From Oscillospiraceae bacterium (GTDB taxonomy: Bacteria; Bacillota; Clostridia; Oscillospirales; Ruminococcaceae), in assembly GCA_017483465.1 (NCBI GenBank), contig JAFUWN010000071.1:1-52440 (forward strand): 52,440 nucleotides of DNA, in the 5' to 3' direction. The notes beneath the pieces were generated by a model. It was not told the origin of the DNA. It worked only from the letters and a program-made list of their open reading frames with translations, and did no database searches. The position numbers were made by a program, and so were the translations under genes. This document shows, one piece after another, positions 33,660 through 38,917 of this stretch; position 1 is the stretch's first letter, and each line of letters begins with the position of its first letter.

Positions 33660-33688
33660 TTTACAAATCTGAAAAATCAGTATATAAT
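33660..33688 (+). promoter_or_regulatory. promoter for the glutamine synthetase-like gene
   Basis: TTTACA (33660-33665), a 17-base spacer and TATAAT (33683-33688). It is only 30 bases from the ATG, so there is no room for an antitermination leader like that before the ammonium transporter. Confidence 0.65.
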
Positions 33689-33717
33689 ATAATTTGTTAT
33701 GTCAAGGAGGAATGAAC

Positions 33718-35007
33718 ATGAATTTTTCACCGAAAGAAATTCTTGATTTTGTCACGGAAAATGATGTCAAGTTTATCCGTCTGACGTTCTGCGATATGCA
33801 GGGGAATCTGAAAAATATTGCCATCATGCCAAATGAACTTCCGAGAGCTTTCTCACACGGAATTCTGCTCGATGCCGCCGGATTTTCCGACTGCTATCAG
33901 GATTTGCTGTTAGTGCCGGATATTTCTACGCTTTCTGTTCTCCCGTGGCGGCCGAAATCCGGCAGAGTTGTCAGATTTTTCTGTAGTATCAAGAATCTGG
34001 ACGGCTCGCATTATGCCGGAGAATTACGCTATACACTTCAGGAATATATCCAGAAATTATATACTAAAGGCTATTCCTGCGAGTTCGGCACAAAAAGCGA
34101 ATTTTATTTATTCGACTGCGACGACGAAGGCAGACCGACTAAAATTCCGCACGACCATGCAGGCTATCTTGATGTTGCCCCTCTGGACAAGTGTGAAAAT
34201 GCCCGGCGTGAAATCTGCCTGTCTCTTGAGGAAATGGGTCTGAATCCCCAGAGATCCTGCCATAAATACGGCCCCGGTCAGAATGAAATTGATTTCAAGT
34301 GCAGTGAGCCTGTCACAGCAGCTGACAATATGGTGCATTATAAAACGGTTGTCAAGACAATCGCCGCTCAGAACGGCTTATATGCCTCTTTCATGCCGAA
34401 GCCTTTAAACGGTACCTACGGAAGTGCCCTGACAATCGTGATCAGCCTGAAAAACAACGGCAGAAATATTTTTGAAATGCAGAATCATCAGCTTCCGGAA
34501 GAAGGTGCGGCTTTTGTTGCCGGGATTTTAAAGCATATGCCTGAAATGACTGTCTTTCTGAATCCGATTGTGAATTCTTATACTCGTCTTCGTCACAGAG
34601 GTGCTCCGAATCATATCAACTGGTCGCTCGAAAACCGTCAGCCGATGATCCGGATTCATGATAATGACGGCGAACCCGCAAGAATTGAAATCCGTAGTGC
34701 AGACTGCTGCTGCAATCCGTATCTGTCATTCCGGTTATTACTGGCAGCCGGTATTGACGGCATTCAGAATCATCTGAAACTCTCTGACGATCTCTGTGTG
34801 ACTGCCGAGAAAAAAACTTTCTCCGCTCTGCCGGAAAAGCTCTGGGCTGCTTATGAAATTTCCCGTCAGAGTGAATTTATCAAAGAAAATCTGCCGGAGG
34901 AAATCCGCAGGAATTTCTGGCGGAATGTGGAAAAACAGCTTGCCTTGTATGATGCCGCTGAGGACAAGGCTCTGTTTGAAGAACAGCAGTATTTCCTGTC
35001 TGAATAA
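33718..35007 (+). CDS. glutamine synthetase homologue with degenerate active site (possible pseudoenzyme)
   Basis: Read from ATG 33718, 7 bases after AAGGAGG; 429 residues, close to normal GlnA-I. It aligns along its whole length with Bacillus GlnA, for example PGQNEIDFK, VVKTIAAQNGLYASFMPKP, NSYTRLR and NPYLSFRLLLAAGIDGI. Key residues have changed. GPEPEF is GTKSEF (n2-metal Glu to Lys126), HHEVAPGQ is CHKYGPGQ (n1-metal Glu to Lys183), GSGMHxN is GSALTIV (metal His to Thr239), the catalytic Glu of the EAP flap is gone (RGAP, Gly295), and FDGSSI is LDAAGF. Glu128, Glu190 and the RIEIR segment remain. Ligands are named from the Salmonella enzyme. I infer loss of synthetase activity and a possible regulatory role with the ANTAR gene 18 bases downstream. 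A changed ligase specificity is the alternative. Confidence 0.88.
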   Translation: MNFSPKEILDFVTENDVKFIRLTFCDMQGNLKNIAIMPNELPRAFSHGILLDAAGFSDCYQDLLLVPDISTLSVLPWRPKSGRVVRFFCSIKNLDGSHYAGELRYTLQEYIQKLYTKGYSCEFGTKSEFYLFDCDDEGRPTKIPHDHAGYLDVAPLDKCENARREICLSLEEMGLNPQRSCHKYGPGQNEIDFKCSEPVTAADNMVHYKTVVKTIAAQNGLYASFMPKPLNGTYGSALTIVISLKNNGRNIFEMQNHQLPEEGAAFVAGILKHMPEMTVFLNPIVNSYTRLRHRGAPNHINWSLENRQPMIRIHDNDGEPARIEIRSADCCCNPYLSFRLLLAAGIDGIQNHLKLSDDLCVTAEKKTFSALPEKLWAAYEISRQSEFIKENLPEEIRRNFWRNVEKQLALYDAAEDKALFEEQQYFLSE

Positions 35008-35025
35008 TAGGGAGATGATAATTGC

Positions 35026-35595
35026 ATGGACAGAGCATTGATTATCTCCGGTTCTGAAAAAGGCATGGAAATCATCGCCCAGTTTCTGCATTCTTACGGA
35101 TATACCAATCTGACTTCTACGGCAAGCGGAAGCGAAGCAAGACGTATGGTTCAGAATACAGAATATGCGTTGATTATTATCAACACACCGCTGAAAGATG
35201 AATTCGGTCATGAATTGTCAGTCATGCTTTCTGAAAATACCAACTCCGGTATTATTTTATTATGCAAGGCGGATATTTCTGATGATGTTGCAGACAAAGT
35301 CGGAGATTACGGAGTCTGTGTGGTTTCCCGGCCAATGAACCGGAACCTGTTTCATCAGTCGATCCGGCTGGTAGAAGCCACACGCTCCAGAATGCTCGGC
35401 CTGAAACGGGAGAATTCCAAGCTGATGGTGAAAATTGATGAAATGCGGCTGATCAACCGTGCCAAATGTGCCCTGATGCAGTATCTCAAATTCACAGAAC
35501 CGGAAGCACACAGATATATCGAAAAACAGGCGATGGATACCAGATCGACCAGAAAAGAAGTCGCCCTCCGGATTTTATCAACTTATGAATTATAA
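35026..35595 (+). CDS. ANTAR RNA-binding antiterminator with degenerate receiver domain
   Basis: Protein of 189 residues. Residues 1-120 have a CheY-like receiver fold (MDRALIISGSEKGMEIIAQF, YALIIINTPLKDEFG). The phosphoacceptor Asp is Asn53, the N-terminal acidic pair is replaced by S-G, and the conserved Lys is Arg (VVSRPM), so phosphorylation is not expected. A short coiled linker follows, then a C-terminal ANTAR domain: LINRAKCALMQYLKFTEPEAHRYIEKQA. ANTAR domains bind paired hexaloop hairpins and stop terminator formation (EutV, NasR, AmiR; established). A matching site lies 207 bases downstream before the ammonium transporter. GGGAGATG precedes the ATG, and it is probably co-transcribed with the glutamine synthetase-like gene. 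Confidence 0.92.
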   Translation: MDRALIISGSEKGMEIIAQFLHSYGYTNLTSTASGSEARRMVQNTEYALIIINTPLKDEFGHELSVMLSENTNSGIILLCKADISDDVADKVGDYGVCVVSRPMNRNLFHQSIRLVEATRSRMLGLKRENSKLMVKIDEMRLINRAKCALMQYLKFTEPEAHRYIEKQAMDTRSTRKEVALRILSTYEL

Positions 35596-35760
35596 TTATA
35601 TTATAAACAGATTCTGTTTTTTATGCAATTTGCAGAATTCTGTAAAGCAATCCAGCTTCTGACTTAAAAAAACAAAACCAGAACCGGAAAATACTATACC
35701 TGTTATGAATTATGACTGAAAATCCGGAGAGATTTTTATAAAATCATACAGGATTGCCAG

Positions 35761-35789
35761 TTGACAAATCCGGAAAAATCATGTATACT
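35761..35789 (+). promoter_or_regulatory. promoter for the ammonium transporter gene
   Basis: TTGACA (35761-35766), a 17-base spacer and TATACT (35784-35789). The transcript should start near 35796, a few bases before hairpin P1. The stretch 35596-35760 before it holds no convincing gene or terminator. Confidence 0.75.
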
Positions 35790-35801
35790 GATAACTGTAA
35801 A

Positions 35802-35837
35802 CAGCAAAGACGCTGGAACATGCAAAGAAGCATGTTT
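35802..35837 (+). promoter_or_regulatory. ANTAR-binding tandem hairpins P1 and P2 in the transporter leader
   Basis: P1: CAGC (35802-35805), hexaloop AAAGAC (35806-35811), GCTG (35812-35815). P2 follows at once: GAACATGC (35816-35823), hexaloop AAAGAA (35824-35829), GCATGTTT (35830-35837). Both loops have A at position 1 and G at position 4, the signature of ANTAR targets. The 3' arm and loop of P1 are part of the terminator stem, so P1 and the terminator cannot form together. This is the known ANTAR switch: protein bound to P1-P2 blocks termination. Confidence 0.88.
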
Positions 35838-35854
35838 CAGTGTCTTTTGTTTTT
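35806..35854 (+). terminator. attenuator terminator before the ammonium transporter
   Basis: An 18-bp continuous stem (35806-35823 with 35830-35847, two G-T pairs) closed by the P2 hexaloop, followed by T-G-T(5) at 35848-35854. It lies 38 bases before the ATG at 35892, so it blocks the gene unless prevented. Confidence 0.88.
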
Positions 35855-35891
35855 ACAAGAAGATTTTCAATTTCAGAAAGGATTGAGCAAA

Positions 35892-37697
35892 ATGGATGTG
35901 TTAAGTGATGTCATGACGAATGTGGATTCTGAAATCTTCGGAATCTGGTTTCTGATTGGTGCAGCATGGGTGTTCTTTATGCAGGCGGGGTTTGCTATGG
36001 TCGAAACGGGGTTCACCCGTGCGAAGAATGCCGGAAATATCATCATGAAAAACCTGATGGATTTCTGTATCGGTACAGTAGTATTCAGTCTGCTGGGGTT
36101 TGGTCTGCTGATGGGTGAAGATGCCCTCGGAGGATTCATCGGTCTGCCAACACTTGGAATTTTTACAGATTATGCAAATTTTGACTGGTCTACATTCGTA
36201 TTTAACTTAGTATTCTGTGCTACGACGGCTACAATCGTATCTGGTGCGATGGCAGAAAGAACGAAATTTTTATCTTACTGTATTTATTCCGGTATCATTT
36301 CTGCTGTTGTTTATCCGATTGAAGCCCATTGGATCTGGGGCGGCGGCTGGCTTTCTCAGTTAGGATTTCATGATTTTGCAGGTTCCTGTGCAATTCATAT
36401 GGTCGGCGGTATCTCGGCTCTGATCGGTGCAGCAATCGAAGGTGCAAGAATCGGCAAATTCAAGAAAGACAAAGACGGAAAAATCATCAAAGTCAATGCG
36501 ATTCAGGGTCATAACCTGACAATCGGAGCACTGGGATGTTTTATCCTGTGGTTCGGCTGGTATGGCTTCAACGGTGCAGCTGCAACATCCGGCGGACAGC
36601 TGGCAAGCATTTTCGTAACAACGACAATTGCACCGTCAATTGCAACTTTTACATGTATGGTATTTACATGGCTGAAATACGGAAAACCGGATGTTTCCAT
36701 GTGTCTGAACGCTTCTCTTGCCGGTCTGGTCGGCGTGACTGCCGGATGTGATGTTGTCGATGCCCTCGGTGCGACATGTATCGGCATTGTTTCCGGTCTG
36801 CTGGTAGTCTTCGGCGTATGGCTGTTAGATTATGTTCTGCATGTGGATGACCCTGTCGGTGCGGTTGCCGTGCATATGATGAACGGTATCTGGGGAACTT
36901 TTGCAGTCGGTCTGTTTGCGACTACTTCCGTACCCGGAAATGATACAATCACAGGTCTGTTCTATGGCGGCGGATTCCATCAGCTGGGACTGCAGTTACT
37001 GGCAATTGTAACAGTCGGTGCATGGACTGCAATCACAATCACAGGTACTTTTATGATCATTAAGAAAGTGATTGGCCTCAGAGCTTCTGCGGAAGAAGAA
37101 ATTATCGGCCTTGACCTGACAGAACACGGCTTATCCAGTTCTTATGCGGATTTCGCTCCTGCTGCTGATACCATGTTACAGGTCAGCCGTCAAGCAGCCC
37201 GTCATGATGTAGACAGTGAAGAAGTCCGTCATGTCTTCGGTTCTGATGCCGATAAACTCAATACCGGTGAACTTCCTGTCATCACAGAAACCAGAAGAGA
37301 AAATACAGCTTCCAAATCCGGTGCGAAACTGACTAAGCTTTCCATTGTCTGCAAGCCCGGCAAACTGGAAGAATTACAGGCAAGTCTTGCAGCAGTCGGC
37401 ATTGACGGTATTACGGTGACACAAGTACTCGGCTACGGAACACAGATGGGTCATACAGCTTATTACAGAGGCGTAAAACAGGAACTGCCTTCGCTGCATT
37501 CCAAAGTAAAAGTAGAAGCAGTAATCACGGCTGTTCCGGTTGACAAGGCTCTTGCAGCAGCAAGAAAAGCTCTCTATACAGGCAATATCGGAGACGGAAA
37601 AATCTTTATCTATGATGTCGAAGATGTTGTGAAAGTCAGAACAAACGAACGGGGCTATGATGCATTGCAGGATTCTCCTCAGCCGAAAGCAAGCTGA
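35892..37697 (+). CDS. amt: Amt ammonium transporter fused to a PII (GlnK) domain
   Basis: Protein of 601 residues from ATG 35892 (MDVLSDVMTNVDSEIFGIWF), with AAAGGA upstream. The Amt part (about 1-400) has 11 membrane helices with the twin-histidine pore: DFAGSCAIHMVGG and DPVGAVAVHMMNG. A linker of about 80 residues (charged, Ala/Glu-rich) leads to a PII domain from about residue 479: KLSIVCKPGKLEELQASL, TVTQVLGYGTQMGHTAYYRGVK with the T-loop Tyr525 (Tyr51 of GlnB), and GDGKIFIYDVEDVVKVRT. PII normally is a separate GlnK that plugs Amt when nitrogen is high; here the plug is tethered. The leader carries an ANTAR switch. Transcription ends at a strong terminator after the gene. Confidence 0.95.
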   Translation: MDVLSDVMTNVDSEIFGIWFLIGAAWVFFMQAGFAMVETGFTRAKNAGNIIMKNLMDFCIGTVVFSLLGFGLLMGEDALGGFIGLPTLGIFTDYANFDWSTFVFNLVFCATTATIVSGAMAERTKFLSYCIYSGIISAVVYPIEAHWIWGGGWLSQLGFHDFAGSCAIHMVGGISALIGAAIEGARIGKFKKDKDGKIIKVNAIQGHNLTIGALGCFILWFGWYGFNGAAATSGGQLASIFVTTTIAPSIATFTCMVFTWLKYGKPDVSMCLNASLAGLVGVTAGCDVVDALGATCIGIVSGLLVVFGVWLLDYVLHVDDPVGAVAVHMMNGIWGTFAVGLFATTSVPGNDTITGLFYGGGFHQLGLQLLAIVTVGAWTAITITGTFMIIKKVIGLRASAEEEIIGLDLTEHGLSSSYADFAPAADTMLQVSRQAARHDVDSEEVRHVFGSDADKLNTGELPVITETRRENTASKSGAKLTKLSIVCKPGKLEELQASLAAVGIDGITVTQVLGYGTQMGHTAYYRGVKQELPSLHSKVKVEAVITAVPVDKALAAARKALYTGNIGDGKIFIYDVEDVVKVRTNERGYDALQDSPQPKAS

Positions 37698-37717
37698 ATA
37701 AAATAAAAAATATTTTT

Positions 37718-37752
37718 ACAGCAGACTGATTTTCTCAGTCTGCTGTTTTTTT
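37718..37752 (+). terminator. strong terminator after the amt-PII fusion
   Basis: A 12-bp perfect stem, ACAGCAGACTGA (37718-37729) with TCAGTCTGCTGT (37735-37746), a TTTTC loop and T(6). Confidence 0.92.
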
Positions 37753-37822: not shown

Positions 37823-38917
37823 TTGAAAAAAATAGTTTTTTCTGCCCTGCTGTCAGGAATACTGTTATTGTACAATTGTCCGGTATTGGCAGTTACTGCC
37901 GAAGATTCTGATGTTTTTTATGAAGATTTTTCCGGCGGTGTGCTGGATTCTGATGTCTGGCTGACGGCTTATAAAAACTGGGGCGGTACTGTTACGGAAA
38001 ACGGTGAAACAGTCGATTATAACGGCGGTGTCATCCCGGAGAATGTGAATCTGCATGACGGAAAACTGCTTCTCACTGGGTATGGAAATCAGTATACAGG
38101 CGATCTCAGGGGAATCAACCGGAACGGAACACAGCGTGAAAACGGTCAGCGTACCGGAGGGGCAATTGCTACAAAAGAGTATTTTGCTTCCGGAAGCTAT
38201 GAAATTTCTGCAAAAATTCCTCCGGTGCTGGGCTGCTGTCCGGCTATGTGGACTTTTGAATATGAAGAAGACTATTCCGGTGATCATCTCGTGATTACCA
38301 ATCATGAAATTGATATTGAATTTCCCGGACGTGATGAGGAAGATCAGTTCAGCTTACAGCATGTGCTGTGTACCAACTGGACCGGCGAGGGGGAAGACGA
38401 GCATCAGTCTGTTTCTGTCAGTACCGGAATCGACCCGACAGACGGAGAATTTCATACATATCGGTTCGACTGGCATACAGGTGATGTAAATCAGGAAAAA
38501 CGTGTGGAATATTATATTGATAATATTTTAATTCATACGTCTTATGAACATGTGCCGGATAAAGCCGGAAGATTCTGGCTCGGCCTCTGGTTTCCGAAAT
38601 ATTGGGCCGGTGTGCCTGATTTCGATACGGCTCAATTTGAAATTGATTATGTGAAAATTACGCCCTTTCATGAAGCCGGTGATCAGCCTCAGAATGAAAG
38701 CTACCCCGATCACGGATGGGCAGAAGAACGCATTCAGGGGGATGTCAATGCTGACGGGGAATTTAATACACTCGATCTGATCACTCTGCACAGATGGCTT
38801 ATGCATGACGGTACTGTGCTCAGTGACTGGAAAGCAGGAAATTTTCTGAATGATGAAATCATCAATATTTATGATTTCTGCCTGATGAAACAAAAATTAA
38901 TCGCATATTCTGAATAA
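37823..38917 (+). CDS. secreted GH16 beta-glucanase with C-terminal dockerin
   Basis: Protein of 364 residues. AAGAAGGTG ends 6 bases before TTG 37823, which I take as the start over the GTG at 37814 that lies inside the ribosome site. A signal peptide follows: KKIVFSALLSGILLLYNCPVLA, cut near VTA-ED. The GH16 domain (about 35-285) has the catalytic HEIDIEF (Glu162 nucleophile, Glu166 acid/base), the motif of lichenases and laminarinases. The C-terminal dockerin (about 306-360) has a good first calcium loop DVNADGEFNTLD; the second, NFLNDEIINIYD, is degenerate. A dockerin docks the enzyme on a cohesin scaffold (cellulosome); no scaffold gene is here. The GH16 substrate (mixed-linkage or 1,3-glucan) is not resolvable. 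glgX-like follows. Confidence 0.93.
   Translation: MKKIVFSALLSGILLLYNCPVLAVTAEDSDVFYEDFSGGVLDSDVWLTAYKNWGGTVTENGETVDYNGGVIPENVNLHDGKLLLTGYGNQYTGDLRGINRNGTQRENGQRTGGAIATKEYFASGSYEISAKIPPVLGCCPAMWTFEYEEDYSGDHLVITNHEIDIEFPGRDEEDQFSLQHVLCTNWTGEGEDEHQSVSVSTGIDPTDGEFHTYRFDWHTGDVNQEKRVEYYIDNILIHTSYEHVPDKAGRFWLGLWFPKYWAGVPDFDTAQFEIDYVKITPFHEAGDQPQNESYPDHGWAEERIQGDVNADGEFNTLDLITLHRWLMHDGTVLSDWKAGNFLNDEIINIYDFCLMKQKLIAYSE

Follow-up and report, generated by a model that had tools for sequence, protein, structure and literature searches.

A decayed glutamine synthetase homologue paired with an ANTAR protein: a possible nitrogen sensor in Ruminococcaceae

Introduction

A contig of an Oscillospiraceae bacterium (GTDB family Ruminococcaceae) carries, in a row, genes for a glutamine synthetase (GS) homologue with replaced metal ligands, a receiver-ANTAR protein and an ammonium transporter with its PII domain attached. 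What could such a GS be doing beside an RNA-binding antiterminator, and how could that antiterminator follow the nitrogen supply if its receiver cannot be phosphorylated? A sequence-only reading of the locus had proposed that the GS-like protein controls the ANTAR protein and, through it, the transporter. The analysis described here suggests an old enzyme now serving as a nitrogen sensor, and we consider it rather likely that the GS homologue is a dedicated sensor, or regulatory pseudoenzyme, that keeps the unphosphorylatable ANTAR protein away from RNA when nitrogen is in excess.

The pairing of ANTAR proteins with nitrogen genes is in itself already known (PMC3369931). In glnA-nitR of Clostridium saccharobutylicum and glnA-ANTAR of C. 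thermocellum (Clo1313_2031/2030), an ANTAR gene likewise accompanies nitrogen-assimilation genes, and antitermination has been proposed (PMC6316151, PMC4676874); in the cited portions of those papers the GS is treated as an ordinary enzyme, and neither a pseudoenzyme nor a single-hairpin target is described. Deletion of the C. thermocellum type I GS (glnA, Clo1313_2031) "deregulates nitrogen metabolism", in the words of the title of Rydzak 2017, as cited in PMC9888227. ANTAR proteins can also be governed by a protein partner and no kinase: according to the cited passages, AmiC binds the pseudo-REC of AmiR (PMC8934654), and in NasS-NasT the ANTAR protein is controlled by a partner protein (PMC3795266). 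The present pair resembles these two systems, AmiR sharing its pseudo-REC character as well; it differs in that the partner is a GS homologue, whose contact with the ANTAR protein is putative. In Bacilli, as the cited part of PMC9249791 has it, GS reports the nitrogen state to a regulator, and GlnR is encoded in an operon with GS.

The GS-ANTAR locus

The window, by which we mean the whole stretch of DNA analysed (52,440 nt), is one contig (C44) of a genome of 2.9 Mb that is 95% complete. Its relevant features are the following.

33660..33688, + strand: promoter-like sequence of the GS-ANTAR operon, TTTACA-17-TATAAT, 11/12 matches
33718..35007, + strand: GS-I homologue, 429 aa, catalytically decayed (K132, K189, T245 and G304 in B. 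subtilis numbering)
35026..35595, + strand: ANTAR protein, 189 aa, pseudo-receiver with Asn at the phospho-site
35761..35789, + strand: amt promoter, TTGACA-17-TATACT, with conserved spacing to the hairpin
35802..35815, + strand: predicted ANTAR hairpin of P2 type, CAGC-AAAGAC-GCTG; it and the terminator exclude each other
35806..35847, + strand: predicted intrinsic terminator of the amt leader, followed by TGTTTTT
35892..37697, + strand: Amt-PII fusion, 601 aa (Amt, residues 18-414; P-II, residues 481-586)
37718..37746, + strand: terminator 3' of amt-PII

The three genes lie where the sequence-only reading had placed them, and a domain search found both the Amt and the P-II domain in one frame, as that reading had also held. 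Further on, at 37823-38914, is a gene for a glycoside hydrolase family 16 protein; its C-terminus resembles a dockerin, at a score just below the cut-off (22.3 bits vs 22.9). An Rfam search gave no match. The genome contains two GS matches, the window GS homologue and a GS on contig C52 with a GSIII N-terminal domain (glnN), and its single ANTAR match is the window ANTAR protein. The close relatives, whose GS is 70-95% identical, are MAGs; their titles read Ruminococcus, Oscillospiraceae or Clostridia, and several name rumen or gut material as the source.

The domain search confirmed the ANTAR domain of the window protein, and its model appears to match EutV and Rv1626 in fold, the other fold matches being mostly receiver domains. 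The phosphorylatable Asp of two-component response regulators is missing and replaced by Asn (IIINTP), in agreement with the sequence-only reading; by eye, the acidic pair, the Thr and the Lys of the receiver phosphorylation site are altered too. This state is common among related ANTAR proteins, 95 of 102 having Asn at the phospho-site and one having Asp.

Pairing of GS and ANTAR genes across the family

Among the matches listed, the ANTAR gene follows the GS gene on the same strand in all 39 loci fetched (gaps of 11-121 nt), and in a second set it does so in 102 of 103, the gap exceeding 200 nt in three. Long frames at L208, L229 and L230 were considered as GS-ANTAR fusions; all three, when checked, proved to be overlapping frames. 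The last of these loci (L230, genome G109) holds a further decayed ANTAR-linked GS with A132, G189 and G304, and by eye a purF-like frame upstream. In 247 family genomes, GS (E <=1e-20) was found in 154, ANTAR in 179 and both in 143, with GS only in 11. Conversely, 36 of the 179 ANTAR-bearing genomes have no GS match at 1e-20, and of 29 class-level ANTAR loci 18 have GS upstream and 11 no adjacent GS, which means that ANTAR can work without GS; by eye, several of the latter are flanked by a GltB-like gene on one side and carA or pyrG on the other.

Among 23 close-relative loci, some of which lie on short contigs, 8 have amt next to the GS-ANTAR pair. The three-gene order, which had been proposed as something to seek in other genomes, does exist in relatives and is local; the unit, then, is GS-ANTAR, with amt as one of its predicted targets. 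At the sequence level, GS-ANTAR is a common, family-wide pair, of which the locus in the window is a derived, clear case and not a rare composite; what stands of the earlier claim that these features are not usually seen together is the decay of the GS and the presence of amt as a neighbour.

The same counts bear on a different arrangement, in which the target of the pseudo-GS is GSIII or some other enzyme, which it might serve as a regulatory subunit, while the ANTAR protein takes its cue from its own level or from a different signal, the PII domain of Amt-PII being one candidate. A PII domain does lie next door in the source genome, an ANTAR protein with a dead receiver could be always active, and a fifth of ANTAR-bearing genomes show no GS match as counted above; set against the family-wide pairing of GS with ANTAR, however, the 8/23 adjacency of amt-PII makes this arrangement improbable.

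The adjoining regulator also separates the window from Bacillus. GlnR and TnrA are MerR-type DNA binders. They are comparable in that GS signals the nitrogen state to a regulator, but there an active GS serves a DNA-binding protein, whereas the regulator next to the decayed window GS is a receiver-ANTAR protein, expected to act as an RNA-binding antiterminator.

Decay of the GS homologue

The GS homologue retains the GS domains (beta-grasp PF03951, 54.4 bits; catalytic PF00120, 276.1 bits), and its TIGR00653 (type I GS) score of 297.8 bits is below the curated cut-off of 429.15. Three of the six metal ligands are replaced, E132K, E189K and H245T (B. subtilis numbering), not most of them as had been claimed, and the flap Glu is replaced in addition (E304G). 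Metal ligands E134, E196 and E333 remain, as do R298, R316, R321 and R335 in alignment with B. subtilis GS. R62 of B. subtilis GS, which has a role in feedback, has no counterpart. The D50 loop and E flap are the places that hold GlnR/TnrA in Bacillus; here the D50 loop is 4 residues shorter and the E flap is changed, and therefore any contact between GS and regulator must differ.

The GS-like proteins of relatives were aligned, another step that the sequence-only reading had put forward. In the 23 close-relative loci, position 132 is K in 16 and R in 7, position 189 is K in every one, position 245 is never H, and E333 has become D in 7 and A in 1; no in-frame stops were found in these GS genes. 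With dN/dS values against the window gene of 0.060, 0.063 and 0.071 (three of seven comparisons, the other four being saturated), the close-relative GS homologues are, on codon evidence, under purifying selection. In a tree of 46 GS rows, the 16 sequences bearing Lys/Arg form one clade (support 97/89) that spans several genera, and the next branch outside it, L044, has lost just E189 and E304. Distinct from the Lys/Arg clade are loci L062-L064 (genus g20), where a second GS-ANTAR pair per genome has Ser132 and Val/Ile333.

A wider census scored seven residues, namely the six metal ligands and the flap Glu E304, in 143 GS rows (142 ANTAR-linked) drawn from the matches listed. It includes one row from outside the family (L235) and one with no adjoining ANTAR (L335); the contigs of L164, L172 and L182 appear to coincide with those of G028, G209 and G139. 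Matches G102, G123, G093:C3, G014:C13, G246 and G173 are left out, as are GS matches near 1e-27 to 1e-32; G009 and G121 were inspected separately. Among the matches listed, at least one of the seven residues is lost in 79/143 rows and at least one metal ligand in 47/143, Lys or Arg stands at one of the seven positions in 53/143, and all seven are kept in 64/143; catalysis is therefore not dispensable everywhere. Column identities to B. subtilis, over the same 143 rows of listed matches, are 1.0 for R298 and D338, 0.97 for E134, E196 and R335, and 0.93 for R321. On one FastTree tree, taken with no support tests, parsimony requires at least 11 changes for metal-ligand loss and at least 13 for loss among the seven residues. 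Separate decay (E196R) occurs in two class-level genomes of one genus (L209, L235).

In GSIII, by contrast, none of the seven residues is lost in any of the 33 rows scored; 35 loci had been given, and 28 of the census genomes supplied most of them. Residue loss that is recurrent in ANTAR-linked GS and absent from GSIII favours, as a pattern of sequence, a sensing role for the former.

Losses that differ by lineage would be expected of relaxed catalysis and not of one new chemistry, which counts against the idea that the GS homologue acts as a ligase on a new substrate and that its place beside ANTAR reflects merely a shared nitrogen function. GS-fold ligases for other amines exist, purifying selection would suit such an enzyme, and there is a match to NF045547 (gamma-glutamylputrescine synthetase) of 218.5 bits, although the cut-off is 650. 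Known GS-fold ligases are, however, metal dependent, close relatives have replaced three metal ligands and the flap Glu, and nearly all GS loci fetched among the matches listed are ANTAR-linked; a new substrate seems about as improbable as separate control of the ANTAR protein. Similarly improbable is a trigger enzyme of the ordinary kind, an ANTAR-linked GS in which activity and sensing both matter, with the decayed forms as lineages drifting to loss. While the 64 intact rows among the matches listed would fit this, decay has persisted through a clade that spans several genera, at dN/dS of about 0.06-0.07, with Lys/Arg132 and Lys189 in 23/23 close-relative loci and no in-frame stops.

The RNA element in the amt leader

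EutV targets, as the cited part of PMC3369931 describes them, include a hairpin that overlaps a terminator and whose hexaloop has A1 and G4. The amt leader of the window carries a predicted element of this kind, as the sequence-only reading had claimed, and the hexaloop A1..G4 hairpin over a terminator recurs in the glnN and asnA leaders as the predicted target. The amt leader folds at -29.6 kcal/mol (z -6.85; 0/200 shuffles as good), and the terminator folds of glnN and asnA have z of -8.58 and -6.95. The amt and glnN leaders have in common TTGACA-17-TATA(A/C)T or similar, then the hairpin CAGC-AAAGGC-GCUG, for which the window clade has a glnN variant, GAAAC-AAUGGC-GUUUC; in both leaders the terminator begins with the 3' part of the hairpin.

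Elements were picked by a script that asked for a stem of no fewer than 4 paired bases and a loop with [AG]A.G, and 31 of 52 amt and glnN leaders passed. In a 24-sequence alignment, 3 of 4 stem pairs have changed on both sides; loop counts and covariation lean toward the expected motif, because the script selected for it. At L074, L075, L076 and L082 the script took another hairpin, and these were re-cut by eye. Nine of the leaders that did not pass belong, by eye, to genes inside operons, with asnA upstream in five.

The -10 box is 9-16 nt from the stem in 25/31 leaders, and in 25/31 the room upstream of the hairpin is under 12 nt from the assumed (predicted) start. An upstream P1-like hairpin of the EutV dual-hairpin type was found in none of the 31 leaders. 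The element is thus, as far as leader sequences can tell, one hairpin near the predicted transcript start, and it differs from the EutV arrangement in this as well as in serving a protein whose receiver is not phosphorylatable. The apical loop of the window's amt-leader terminator (35824-35829, AAAGAA) also fits A1..G4, as do the terminator loops of L075 (AACGAA) and L076 (AAAGAA); that of L077 does not. Autoregulation of GS-ANTAR through the element was considered and set aside: it is missing from most GS leaders, the window's included, and present in a few (e.g. L225).

Targets of the element

Three putative ANTAR elements occur in the source genome, before amt-PII, glnN (GSIII) and asnA. 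The anatomy of the locus fits the control model of the sequence-only reading, and the predicted regulon is wider than the transporter. Model R1 (E-values of R1 and R2 are rough) scores amt at 59.4 bits (35761-35816), a sequence in its training set, and the element before asnA, outside that set, at 43.9 bits; the asnA gene itself matches TIGR00669 at 351 bits, above the cut-off of 292.8. The next R1 match, at 33.1 bits, has no such hairpin by eye. The glnN element scores 65 bits with R2, of which it is a training sequence, and 27.1 bits with R1, within R1 background. Among relatives, 5/6 asnA leaders have the element.

In 27 other genomes, R1 matches were found in 10/14 with ANTAR vs 2/13 without, or, when G013 (whose leader is in the R1 training set) is removed, in 9/13 vs 2/13 (p 0.008). 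Of 13 R1 matches in other genomes, 11 lie by glnN, amt, asnA or GS (L220 being the G013 match), one precedes an ATP-grasp gene and one has no such neighbour. One of the two matches in genomes scored as lacking ANTAR precedes glnN, and for this reason ANTAR may have been missed there. In G063 (L228 109-1452, minus strand), a gene with circularly permuted ATP-grasp domains lies behind an element and is a possible further target. At L105, L106, L110, L112 and L114, asnA is directly upstream of glnN, and amt follows glnN in some genomes; judged by gene order, this asnA-glnN(-amt) arrangement is one ammonium operon behind the element.

A model for nitrogen sensing

AmiC-AmiR, NasS-NasT and GS-GlnR serve as analogues here; from them, and from the way in which residues were lost, we infer that the ANTAR protein is controlled by its co-encoded GS homologue, and with this the oligomer, the ligand, a direct GS-ANTAR contact and the sign of the switch. 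The GS homologue would keep the GS fold and the substrate-site arginines and would no longer make glutamine, a task left to GSIII (glnN). In nitrogen excess, the ligand-bound GS homologue would hold the ANTAR protein, the sensed ligand probably being glutamine. In nitrogen limitation, the ANTAR protein would be free, with no need of phosphorylation, and could bind one hexaloop hairpin, close to where nascent transcripts of amt-PII, glnN and asnA begin, and block the overlapping terminator. In C. thermocellum, nitrogen-assimilation genes reportedly went up after glnA deletion despite high glutamine, as would fit a GS that restrains ANTAR.

Extended to the family, the reading becomes a claim that we hold tentatively and regard as almost evenly poised: any GS adjoining ANTAR may be a sensor and not mainly an enzyme, may have become a pseudoenzyme many times over, with Lys or Arg in place of a metal-binding Glu perhaps replacing the metal ions, and may switch a phosphorylation-free ANTAR protein through one 5'-terminal hairpin.

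Implications

What is new is the repeated decay of GS, together with a predicted regulon of three ammonium genes and a target made of a single hairpin. A pseudo-GS with ANTAR is not described in the literature searched, which left most subscription papers outside. If the model is right, it would bear on a question raised in the cited part of PMC8934654, why two hairpins are needed if an ANTAR dimer binds one, and would offer a reading of the nitrogen deregulation that the title of the C. thermocellum study ascribes to type I GS deletion. It would also account for nitrogen sensing by clostridial ANTAR proteins whose receivers are dead, and would provide a natural gradation that runs from an enzyme to a protein that only senses.
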